Assembly: GCA_016210665.1 (NCBI GenBank)
Contig: JACQTT010000002.1
Location: 1-33,965 of the forward strand
Source: Chloroflexota bacterium
GTDB lineage: Bacteria; Chloroflexota; Dehalococcoidia; Lucifugimonadales; JACQTT01
DNA: 33,965 nucleotides
Direction: 5' to 3'
Positions 2,927-29,615 of this stretch are shown piece by piece (the stretch's first letter is position 1; each line of letters starts with the position of its first letter). A program made the position numbers and the translations under genes. The notes beneath the pieces were generated by a model, which searched no databases, had not been told where the DNA came from, and worked only from the letters and a program-made list of their open reading frames with translations.

Positions 2927-4333
2927 ATGCCGAAGACTCTGTTTGAAAAGATATGGGAGAAACACGTAGTCCACGAGGAGGCTGGAAAGCCTACCCTCCT
3001 CTACATTGACCTTCACCTGGTACATGAAGTCACCTCGCCCCAGGCATTTGAAGGGCTTCGCCTGGCGGGTCGCAAGGTGCGACGCCCCGAGATGACCATC
3101 GCCACCGCCGACCATAACGTCCCCACCTGGGACCGCTCTCTCCCCATTACCGACGAAATCTCCTTGAAGCAGCTCCAGGTTCTCTCCCAGAACTGCAAGG
3201 AGTTCGGCGTCACCCTCTACGACATCCACAGCCCCAGCCAGGGCATAGTCCACATCATCGGCCCGGAGCAGGGCTACACTCAGCCGGGCAAGACCATCGT
3301 CTGCGGAGACAGCCACACCTCAACCCACGGCGCATTAGGCGCCCTCGCCTTCGGCATCGGCACCTCCGAGGTAGAGCACGTCCTCGCCAGCCAGTGTCTC
3401 CTCCAGAGAAAACCCAAGACCATGGAGATTCGTGTCAACGGCTCCCTACCCCAAGGGGTAACAGCCAAGGATATCATCCTGGGCATCATCGGCCGCATAG
3501 GTGTGGAAGGGGCTGTCGGCCATGTCATCGAGTACACCGGCGAGGCCATCCGCTCCCTCTCCATGGAGGGCCGCATGACCGTGTGCAACATGTCCATCGA
3601 GGCGGGCGCCCGGGCAGGGATGATTGCCCCCGACGATACCACCTTCAAATATCTACGAGGGCGCCCCCAAGCCCCTAATGGGAAAGAGTTTGACAAAGCT
3701 GTTGAGAGGTGGCGAACGCTACCAACGGATCCCGGAGCCGTCTTCGATAAGCTGGTGGAGATAGATGCGGCAAGCCTTGTACCTCATGTCACCTGGGGCA
3801 CAAACCCCGGCATGGTGGTTCCCGTCACAGGGCGCGTCCCCGACCCCGTCTCCTTTTCTTCAGCTGCGGACCGACAGGCCACCCAGCGGGCCCTGGACTA
3901 CATGGGCCTGGAGCCGGGCATACCCATCCAGAGCATCGCCCTCGACCGCGTGTTCATCGGCTCCTGCACCAACTCCCGCCTGGAAGACCTGAGGGCGGCT
4001 GCAAGCGTGGCCAAGGGGCGCAAGGTGCACCCCAAAGTCCATGCAATGGTCGTCCCAGGCTCCTTCGCCGTCAAGAAGCAGGCCGAGGCCGAGGGTCTGG
4101 ACCGCATCTTCAAGGACGCGGGCTTCGATTGGCGTGAGGCGGGGTGCTCCATGTGCCTCGGCATGAACCCGGACATCCTCCAGCCGGGGGAGCGGTGCGC
4201 CTCCACCGCCAATCGCAACTTCGAGGGGCGCCATGGCAAGGGCGGGCGCGTCCACCTGGTCAGCCCCCCGATGGCCGCCGCCGCCGCCATCGCCGGCCAC
4301 TTCGTGGACATACGGGAGTGGAAGGCCATCTAG
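2927..4333 (+). CDS. leuC: 3-isopropylmalate dehydratase large subunit
   Basis: [54 protein letters not shown] (Fe-S ligands); 468 aa. Confidence 0.95.
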
Positions 4334-27343: not shown

Positions 27344-27796
27344 ATGCCCGAGGTAGGCGACAAAGCCCCCGACTTCACCCTTGCCAGCACAGTGGGAGAG
27401 TTGACCCTCAGCAAGGTCAACCAGAGGAAAAAGGTCGTTTTGGCCTTTTACATCGAGGATAATACCCCTGGCTGAAGTCAAGAGATATCCTCCTTTAAGG
27501 AGGAGTACGCCACTATTCAGGAATTGGAGAGTGAGGTGCTGGGGATAAGCGCCGACAGCGTGGACTCCCATGCCAAGTTTTGTGAAAAGATAGGCGGCTG
27601 TCCATTTCCCCTACTCAGCGACACCACCCTCCAGGTAGCTCGGCTCTACGACGTTCTGGGAGAGGATGGCAAGCGCATCCGCCGAGCCGTATTCGTTCTC
27701 GATGCAACAGGCATAATTATTTACAAGATTCCGTGGTATCAACCAGGCAATGTGGGGCAGTTCATGGAGGTCTTCCAGGCTCTAGGGCTAAACTAA
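27344..27796 (+). CDS. Peroxiredoxin (BCP/AhpC-TSA-like), probable selenoprotein (UGA 27473-27475)
   Basis: MPEVGDKAPDFTLASTVGELTLSKVNQRKKVVLAFYIEDNTPG-TGA-SQEISSFKEEYATIQELESEVLGISADSVDSHAKF...; UGA replaces the peroxidatic Cys of the TPGC motif and the frame is otherwise open. Confidence 0.88.
27488..27504 (+). promoter_or_regulatory. Candidate bSECIS hairpin for the peroxiredoxin UGA
   Basis: TCCTCC-TTTAA-GGAGGA, starting 12 nt after the UGA. Confidence 0.45.
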
Positions 27797-27822: not shown

Positions 27823-27851
27823 TTGACAGTCTCTCCAGAGTTGCGTATAAT
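27823..27851 (+). promoter_or_regulatory. Consensus sigma70 promoter
   Basis: TTGACA - 17 nt - TATAAT, perfect match to both hexamers. Confidence 0.9.
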
Positions 27852-27861
27852 GTAAACAGTT

Positions 27862-27921
27862 ATGACTTATCAGATTGTAATCGAGTGCATCTGTACCTGT
27901 ACCCGGGAGGGTCCGGGGTAG
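27862..27921 (+). CDS. Cys-containing leader peptide, near-leaderless (19 codons)
   Basis: ATG 10 nt after the -10 box; MTYQIVIECICTCTREGPG*, with three Cys codons (27886, 27892, 27898) within five codons. Confidence 0.65.
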   Translation: MTYQIVIECICTCTREGPG

Positions 27922-27943
27922 GCTAACTTTGTCTTCATGTAGG

Positions 27944-27984
27944 GCCCTCTCGTAGAACAACCTCTACGAGAGGGCTTTTCTTTT
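27944..27984 (+). terminator. Intrinsic terminator / attenuator upstream of tusA
   Basis: GCCCTCTCGTAG / CTACGAGAGGGC 12-bp perfect stem followed by TTTTCTTTT; lies between the promoter and ORF 28012. Confidence 0.9.
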
Positions 27985-28011
27985 ACGAATAATCTAGTTC
28001 AGGAGGAAGAA

Positions 28012-28260
28012 ATGTCATCGCAGATTCAGGAGATCAAGGACGACAAGGTCTTGGATACGAGGGGAAAGCTCTGCCCCATGCCCGTTATCGAGGCCTCCCT
28101 GGTTATGAAGGACCTAATCTCAGGGCATGTGCTGAAGGTTCTGGCCACCGACCCCGGCTCCAAGGCCGATTTTCCTGCTTGGGCCGAGGCCTCGGGGCAT
28201 CGTTTGCTAAAGCAAGAGGCAAAGGATACCATCTTCACCTACTGGATACAGAAGGGATAG
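28012..28260 (+). CDS. TusA/SirA-family sulfurtransferase
   Basis: LDTRGKLCPMPVIEASLVMKDL, LKVLATDPGSKADFPAWAEASGHRLL. Confidence 0.92.
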   Translation: MSSQIQEIKDDKVLDTRGKLCPMPVIEASLVMKDLISGHVLKVLATDPGSKADFPAWAEASGHRLLKQEAKDTIFTYWIQKG

Positions 28261-28269
28261 GAGGTCACC

Positions 28270-28833
28270 ATGTTGGAGTCTCTCGAGAAACTCTCCCTGG
28301 ATTTGGAGGAGTTCAAGCGCCTTCACAGCGAGGTTCATAAGGATACTGACACAAAAAGGCTGGCCATCGTGGCTTCAAAGGGCAGCCTGGACATGATCTA
28401 TCCCGCCCTGATCCTGGCCACTACGGCCGCTTCTATGGGCTGGCAGGTTGGGATCTTCTTCACCTTTTACGGCCTGGACGCCCTTCATGTCAAGCGTTAT
28501 AAGAAGCTGAAAGTCGCTCCTCTAGGCAACCCGGCCATGCCTGCACCATTCCATGGCATCCCTGTTCAGGTGCCAACTATCATAGCGGCTATTCCTGGCA
28601 TGACCACGGTTGCCACTATCCTGATGAAAAGCTGGATGAAACGCTCCAGACTCCCAACGGTGGAAGGTTTTCTGAAGATGTCCAACCAGATGGGCGTCAA
28701 GCTCATCGCCTGCTCTACTACCATGGGAGTCATGAAGATAAAGCAGGAGGATCTGCTGCCAGAAGCCGAAGTGCAAGGTGCAGCCGCCTTTCTTCACTTT
28801 GCTTCCAAGGCCACGGTCAGCCTGTTTATATAG
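28270..28833 (+). CDS. DsrE/DsrF-like family protein
   Basis: LAIVASKGSLDMIYPALILATTAASMGWQVGIFFTFYGL...LIACSTTMGVMKIKQEDLLPEAEVQGAAAF. Confidence 0.88.
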   Translation: MLESLEKLSLDLEEFKRLHSEVHKDTDTKRLAIVASKGSLDMIYPALILATTAASMGWQVGIFFTFYGLDALHVKRYKKLKVAPLGNPAMPAPFHGIPVQVPTIIAAIPGMTTVATILMKSWMKRSRLPTVEGFLKMSNQMGVKLIACSTTMGVMKIKQEDLLPEAEVQGAAAFLHFASKATVSLFI

Positions 28834-29009
28834 GTAGCGACCACAAGAGCAGAAACATGCCCAAGGCTTGGTAGAGGCCTCTAATTGTTGACATACGCCG
28901 TGATCTGAACGAGCACAACGCCTTGACATGGCCGCCAAGAGGGGGTAATTTTGGGAAGGAAAGCTGGCGCGCCCAAGCCTTCGTTAGGAACGGAGGCGGC
29001 GATGAAAGG

Positions 29010-29615
29010 ATGAATAGCATGCCCCGAATCCACCCCCTGAAAGAGGAAGAGGTGCCCTCAGAGAGCAGGGCATATTTTGAAAGGAGCCGGCTCTCTTTCG
29101 GCGCAGTGCTTCAGAGCACCGCCCTCTACGCCTACTGCCCTCCCATCCTGGAGGGAATCAGTCTCCTGGGTACCAGCATAGAGAGGTCGAGAAAGCTTAC
29201 TCGACAGCTACGGTGTTTGATCAATGTGAAGGTAGCGGCCATAGTAGGCTGTCCCTTCTGAATGGATACCAACGCTAGCGGAGCTAGCAAGGCTGGCGCC
29301 TCCCACGAAAAGATCATGGCAACCTTTTGCTTCCGAGAGAGCGGACTTTTCACCCCGGCGGAAAAGGTGGCTCTGGAAGTGGCTGAGGCTATGACTCAAA
29401 CCCCTCCGAGAGTGACCGACGTCCTGTTCCAGCAGTTGCAGGAACACTATGCTGAGGCACAGATTGTGGAAATGGCGGCCGTTATCGCTCTGGAGAACTT
29501 TCGCAGCCGTTTCAACCGTTGCCTGGGGGTTCAGGCCCACGGATTCTATCATGGATTGAAAGAGGTGCTGGAAGCGGCTGGGCTCTCGATGCGAGAATCA
29601 GTCCAATTGTCCTGA
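29010..29615 (+). CDS. AhpD/carboxymuconolactone-decarboxylase-like protein, probable selenoprotein (UGA 29259-29261)
   Basis: ...RKLTRQLRCLINVKVAAIVGCPF-TGA-MDTNASGASKAGASHEKIMATF...; the second Cys of the CxxC motif (GCPFC) is UGA; continuous frame to 29615. Confidence 0.82.
29274..29288 (+). promoter_or_regulatory. Candidate bSECIS hairpin for the AhpD-like UGA
   Basis: GCTAGC-GGA-GCTAGC, starting 12 nt after the UGA, G-containing apical loop. Confidence 0.5.

Follow-up and report, generated by a model that had tools for sequence, protein, structure and literature searches.

Candidate cysteine-responsive transcription attenuators with near-leaderless leader peptides upstream of tusA-dsrE2 and sulfite reductase genes in an order of Dehalococcoidia

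The upstream reading frame uORFC-8-2, located ahead of cysS in Rhodobacterales, is a predicted cysteine transcription attenuator (PMC8632094). In Actinobacteria, Cys leader ORFs lacking terminators were predicted ahead of cys operons (PMC1262725), and mycobacterial Cys leader ORFs were found to be leaderless (PMC4633059); these two papers gave the earliest candidates of this kind. PMC13236596, citing Canestrari et al. (2020), describes the leaderless polycysteine uORFs of mycobacteria as translation attenuators. The trp/his-type attenuators of Proteobacteria and Actinobacteria are built from a codon run, a stop codon, and mutually exclusive antiterminator and terminator helices. In the open-licence literature, transcription attenuation by cysteine has been predicted, but not shown as a broad system.

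The window analysed here is a stretch of 33,965 nucleotides from an uncultured member of the Dehalococcoidia (Chloroflexota), whose genome assembly comprises 1.38 Mb and is 74% complete. A base-by-base check confirmed the promoter, leader ORF, Cys codons, antiterminator, Shine-Dalgarno sequence and tusA gene of the original prediction, coordinates included. The locus is composed of the following elements.

27823-27851, + strand: sigma-70 promoter TTGACA-N17-TATAAT, matching the consensus at 12 of 12 positions
27862-27921, + strand: leader ORF MTYQIVIECICTCTREGPG and stop codon, 19 codons, predicted near-leaderless, 10 nt from -10 box to ATG
27886-27888, + strand: Cys codon 1 (TGC), predicted sensing codon; antiterminator arm free when a ribosome masks this position
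27892-27894, + strand: Cys codon 2 (TGT), predicted sensing codon; antiterminator arm free when a ribosome masks this position
27898-27900, + strand: Cys codon 3 (TGT); antiterminator arm partly masked by a ribosome here
27904-27914, + strand: antiterminator 5' arm CGGGAGGGTCC, within the final leader codons, co-varying with the terminator arm across families
27941-27956, + strand: terminator 5' arm, of which 27942-27952 doubles as antiterminator 3' arm GGGCCCTCTCG
27941-27985, + strand: intrinsic terminator hairpin and T-rich tail; stem 27941-27978, 16 pairs, loop of 6
28001-28006, + strand: Shine-Dalgarno sequence AGGAGG of tusA
28012-28260, + strand: tusA, sulfur carrier of 82 aa (Pfam TusA PF01206, 1.8e-21)
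28270-28833, + strand: dsrE2-type sulfur carrier of 187 aa (Pfam DrsE_2 PF13686, 2.3e-41)

The perfect TTGACA-N17-TATAAT promoter occurs once in the 34 kb window and in none of 100 shuffles. With a gap of only ten bases between the -10 box and the ATG, a usual start site would leave a leader of 3-4 nt, and promoter spacing thus points to transcription starting about that far ahead of the ATG. The Cys codons occupy positions 9, 11, and 13 of the 19. The claim of a strong intrinsic terminator behind the leader is borne out by the 16-pair stem, which is followed by the T-rich tail TCTTTTACGA, has a computed folding energy of -26 kcal/mol and is the strongest within 6 kb. The antiterminator CGGGAGGGTCC/GGGCCCTCTCG contains 11 pairs, nine Watson-Crick and two G-U. 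The dsrE2 product scores 158 bits against the NCBIfam family SulfCarrDsrE2, under the family cut-off of 210.

Like the trp/his-type attenuators, the locus contains a codon-enriched leader ORF, a terminator before the first gene, and an antiterminator that overlaps the terminator 5' arm. However, those systems sense Trp or His, whereas this leader carries Cys codons and appears to start at the extreme 5' end. Trp-type attenuators also add termination when untranslated, but the window's leader has no clear protector hairpin. With uORFC-8-2 (PMC8632094) the locus shares a short ORF with Cys codons, an intrinsic terminator, and inferred sensing of Cys-tRNA through ribosome stalling. The two differ in lineage and target, which are Alphaproteobacteria and cysS in one case and Chloroflexota, tusA-dsrE and the sulfite reductase gene sir in the other. 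The Cys codons of uORFC-8-2 are moreover in tandem at about positions 14-15, inside the first stem, and no near-leaderless start was reported for it. The mycobacterial polycysteine uORFs are near-leaderless short ORFs, as the window's leader is predicted to be; they too have Cys codons near the stop and precede genes for sulfur or cysteine metabolism. Yet they have no terminator (PMC1262725) and act by translation attenuation (PMC13236596), whereas the window has a terminator with a co-varying antiterminator.

A search of the open-licence literature for cysteine attenuation together with Chloroflexi, TusA or sulfite reductase gave nothing relevant, and none in Dehalococcoidia was among the ten best matches listed. 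The original prediction had noted that such a locus looks undescribed. Within that literature this stands for the lineage, the targets, and the pairing of an intrinsic-terminator switch with near-leaderless initiation, all of which look undescribed, but not for the principle, since cysteine transcription attenuation had already been predicted (PMC8632094).

To judge from its sequence and that of its relatives, the locus is very probably a transcription attenuator with near-leaderless initiation, in which the translating ribosome senses charged tRNA-Cys. RNA polymerase would start about 3-4 nt ahead of the leader ATG, and a ribosome would translate the leader while the polymerase makes the RNA downstream. 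With ample Cys-tRNA, the ribosome would reach the stop codon and cover CGGGAGGGTCC, allowing the terminator to form and transcription to stop ahead of tusA. With scarce Cys-tRNA, it would stall at Cys codon 1 or 2, leaving CGGGAGGGTCC free to pair with the emerging terminator 5' arm, so that the polymerase would enter tusA-dsrE2. Cysteine shortage is therefore expected to raise tusA-dsrE2 expression, and the read-through would enlarge the supply of sulfur carriers. A reasonable motive for the wiring would be that the sulfur carried by TusA and DsrE2 goes into cysteine or into related thiol chemistry, as is suggested by the cysteine-synthase gene that adjoins the leader in relatives.

Computed folds fit this attenuation model and refine it. 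The early transcript has a folding energy of -24.9 or -24.3 kcal/mol when a ribosome masks Cys codon 1 or 2, and the terminator arm is then paired upstream with a probability of 0.74 or 0.71. With the ribosome at the stop codon, the early transcript reaches just -1.8 kcal/mol and the antiterminator cannot form. The masking scheme of the original prediction thus holds for stalls at the first two Cys codons and for the stop, but half of the antiterminator arm is already covered once the ribosome sits on Cys codon 3. Because the terminator beats the antiterminator at equilibrium whatever the position of the ribosome on the window's leader, the decision has to be kinetic, taken while transcription is under way. 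In the untranslated leader the antiterminator is favoured early (0.75), which predicts read-through, with no extra termination, when translation is absent.

Taken by itself, the window locus exceeds chance only weakly. Of random 330-nt windows, 10.7% contain at least three Cys codons within eight, as do 7.5% of shuffles, and the antiterminator duplex compares with dinucleotide shuffles of the leader end at p=0.077. The case for an attenuator is therefore carried by comparison among relatives.

A whole-genome DsrE2 search of 250 genomes of the same order yielded 11 with dsrE, and scanning the GTDB representatives brought a further close tusA-dsrE locus (L019). A Cys-codon leader precedes tusA in nine of the 11 genomes and in L019, with a terminator next in nearly all. 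The leaders, each ending at a stop codon, read MVGSATLCCCACTCPREGFP in G012, MSNMACLCTCTWEGPSG in L019, MIQCKALCCVCRCAGESPG in G020, MGICCRCCAVPRGP in G054, MGLCCRCCGVARGP in G021, and VVGQTFPRGLCCCLCSTL in G041. Three have fewer Cys codons: SCICTPGR (G037), MCTRCRLGDG (G063), and CTCTWEG (G013), the last with no stop codon ahead of its terminator. Conservation of the Cys codons had been named as a check that could overturn the original prediction; across families the peptide sequence drifts and the Cys codons stay. The leader stop lies 85-96 nt from tusA in the relatives that pass a strict Cys-cluster filter. A cysteine-synthase gene ending GKVWW lies directly upstream of the leader in G012, G054, G021, G037, G063, and G041, and in G037 and G041 the leader frame starts at its stop codon. 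A simple terminator was not found in G037, nor a convincing antiterminator in G041. G004 and G038 have no credible leader upstream of tusA; an apparent one in G004, MPCRCWVCTPLSALC, is due to chance, since its frame falls inside a protease-like gene.

An NCBIfam scan of five leader peptides gave no match. A DNA pattern for C-T-C-x-[R/W]-E-G had seven matches in the 250 genomes, versus three in the reversed control. Nothing of relevance came up beyond the known loci, as three other matches fell inside genes and one was unclear.

Cys-rich sequences were also observed ahead of tusA in further records. An Acidimicrobiia record of another phylum (L052, about 3497-3560) has the leader MNVRCAFCMYCVCTRRGRNA and stop upstream of tusA-dsrE, accompanied by GTGGGAGG/CCTCCCAC and a terminator; an independent origin is possible. 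In two Chloroflexi records (L041, L042), tusA is preceded by a GC hairpin and by a Cys motif, CICT.RN, conserved between them, in a layout unlike that of the window's leader.

The helix that joins the leader end to the terminator 5' arm recurs with altered sequence. By eye, GGGAGGG or a near relative faces CCCTCTC in the window, G012, G013, L019, and G020, the equivalent pairing is GGGGGCC/GGCCCCC in G054 and G021, and in G063 it is GGCTTGGGGAC/GTCCCCAGGCC. Duplex energies for the window, G012, G013, L019, G020, G021, and G063 compare with shuffles at p of 0.006-0.08. Against dinucleotide shuffles, the combined p is 1.4e-5 for eight tusA loci and 2.7e-8 for 63 sir loci, values that are too small because related sequences are not independent. 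In a swap test on 71 loci, each leader end was paired with each terminator arm and row and column effects were removed. Own pairs are 1.06 kcal/mol stronger than swapped pairs (permutation p=5e-5); when each of 25 families is represented by a single locus, the median p is 0.002. The arms thus co-vary, and the other check named beforehand, the conservation of the antiterminator pairing, also came out in favour of the original prediction.

The same architecture is found ahead of sulfite reductase genes, among 110 sir loci of the order. Leaders were defined here, irrespective of Cys, as frames whose start codon lies 33-42 nt past a TTGAC box, and were kept if the box was TTGACA or TTGACC and the leader was 200-420 nt away from the end of the piece extracted. 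The 68 leaders retained come from 23 families and contain 181 Cys residues versus 32 expected, a 5.6-fold excess; every other residue is at most 1.8-fold. Two Cys within four positions (C-x(0-2)-C) are present in 63 of the 68, and the next residue reaches 15. At least two Cys occur in 64 leaders from 22 families, of the 110 sir loci. A terminator follows 63 of these 64, and the distance from the -35 box to the start codon is 37-39 nt in 53. Examples, each followed by a stop codon, are MRFPDDLFHLCTCPP, MSINYSFNCCCSL, and MLVRNICICTCTCPPT. The usual antiterminator arm, TAGGGGC, lies at the stop codon itself. The element is restricted in lineage: none of 18 sir genes from other orders or classes of the phylum has such a Cys leader.

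The window's attenuator is thus best read as belonging to a class that extends across the order and acts mainly on sulfite reductase. The predicted switch recurs in more than 20 families of one Chloroflexota order, at the assimilatory sulfite reductase gene and a sulfur-carrier operon, and would provide a concrete, testable rule by which sulfur assimilation is tuned in uncultured Dehalococcoidia. It also raises the question of how a ribosome that starts at the 5' end is coupled to the polymerase along a leader of about 60 nt.

In family f41, sir leaders such as those of L242, L233, and L217 end in CTCPPT before the stop, and their Pro-Pro codons can pair with a GGGGCGGG segment 3' of the stop. 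CCGCCC/GGGCGG adjoining the stop forms, by eye, a candidate protector hairpin, and the Pro-Pro/GGGGCGGG pairing may be the one missing from the window's leader.

The window's own genome contains two further Cys leaders, ahead of its two sir loci. The second sir gene has a TTGACA box, the leader MKYVILATRPLVSSRCCPS with its stop, and then a terminator; GGGGCGG, directly after the leader, can pair with the terminator arm CCGCCCC. The other leader (contig C14, 103-430; L139 in genome G000) ends in SARLCCSCCSC and precedes tauE-sir-hemD-cysH-sat, an operon for sulfate assimilation that continues with a sirohaem-synthesis gene and a tetrapyrrole methylase gene. Its promoter is TTGACA-17-TATACT. This leader has no intrinsic terminator, and CCTCCTC just 3' of its stop can pair with the tauE Shine-Dalgarno sequence GAGGAG, suggesting that it acts by translational attenuation and that both modes, transcriptional and translational, coexist in one genome. 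No Cys leader lies ahead of cysK or cysM among the PALP-family genes of this genome.

The C14 leader bears on whether the window's leader could itself work in the mycobacterial manner, its translation gating the tusA ribosome-binding site and the hairpin being incidental. Near-leaderless mycobacterial Cys ORFs are described as translation attenuators (PMC13236596, citing Canestrari 2020), and C14, with an anti-Shine-Dalgarno segment and no terminator, indicates that this mode may exist in the same genome. However, a strong terminator and its T-rich tail stand between the leader and tusA, the tusA Shine-Dalgarno sequence lies outside the hairpin, and nearly all sir Cys leaders also have a terminator, making this explanation very improbable. 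Slightly less improbable, though still unlikely, is that the Cys-rich peptide itself is the effector, as a metal-, thiol- or persulfide-binding microprotein or an arrest peptide. Cys-x-Cys spacing is indeed common, and some groups share terminal residues (CTCPPT before the stop, TREG/WEG), but RNA pairing accounts for these conserved ends, because they overlap with the antiterminator arm. The peptides otherwise differ freely outside the Cys codons, Cys number and spacing vary (CICTCT, CCCACTC, CCRCC, CCC, CTC), and a terminator follows nearly every leader.

T-box and metabolite riboswitches often regulate Cys and Met genes in Firmicutes, and one of them could govern the terminator here, the ORF being incidental. 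But an Rfam scan of the whole window gave 0 matches at the gathering scores of the families, and the leader of about 120 nt is taken up by the ORF and the terminator, so the probability of this is negligible. Equally slight is the likelihood that a random short ORF with Cys codons happens to sit downstream of a promoter and ahead of a constitutive terminator. About a tenth of random 330-nt windows do contain a Cys cluster this large, but the Cys leader is kept in most tusA relatives and in 64 of 110 sir loci, Cys is in 5.6-fold excess, and the arms co-vary. The preferred reading of the window's locus remains transcription attenuation governed by charged tRNA-Cys.

A wider scheme is conceivable but doubtful. 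An order-wide Cys-tRNA regulon of Dehalococcoidia might use sensor ribosomes loaded at the 5' end to control sulfite reductase, TusA-DsrE2, and perhaps more, with ATP sulfurylase tails possibly an extreme form. In family f41, ATP sulfurylase genes that apparently precede aprBA (L109-L120, L132, L137) end Cys-rich (CTCTREKA, GCTCSGTA, DCTCCCET before the stop), and an intrinsic terminator lies 4-16 nt later. Both the Cys tail and the terminator are absent from most of the remaining sat genes examined (L121-L131, L133-L136). The tails show no antiterminator pairing in the swap test (p=0.55) and are thereby ruled out as classical attenuators. In such a tail, the enzyme's own final codons could serve as the sensor, and a ribosome at the stop would block termination, giving the opposite polarity.

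Two candidate selenoprotein genes flank the attenuator in the window. Directly upstream, a peroxiredoxin-like gene (27344-27796) has an in-frame TGA at the catalytic Cys position (NTPG-U-SQE). Downstream, a gene at 28950-29612 for a YciW-related (seleno)protein (NCBIfam NF053654) has an in-frame TGA at 29259-29261 (GCPF-U-MDTNA). Judged by these codons, both probably encode selenoproteins. No selB scored above cut-off in the 74% complete assembly; a tRNA-Sec is present in the same genome, at 68.9 bits against a gathering score of 47.
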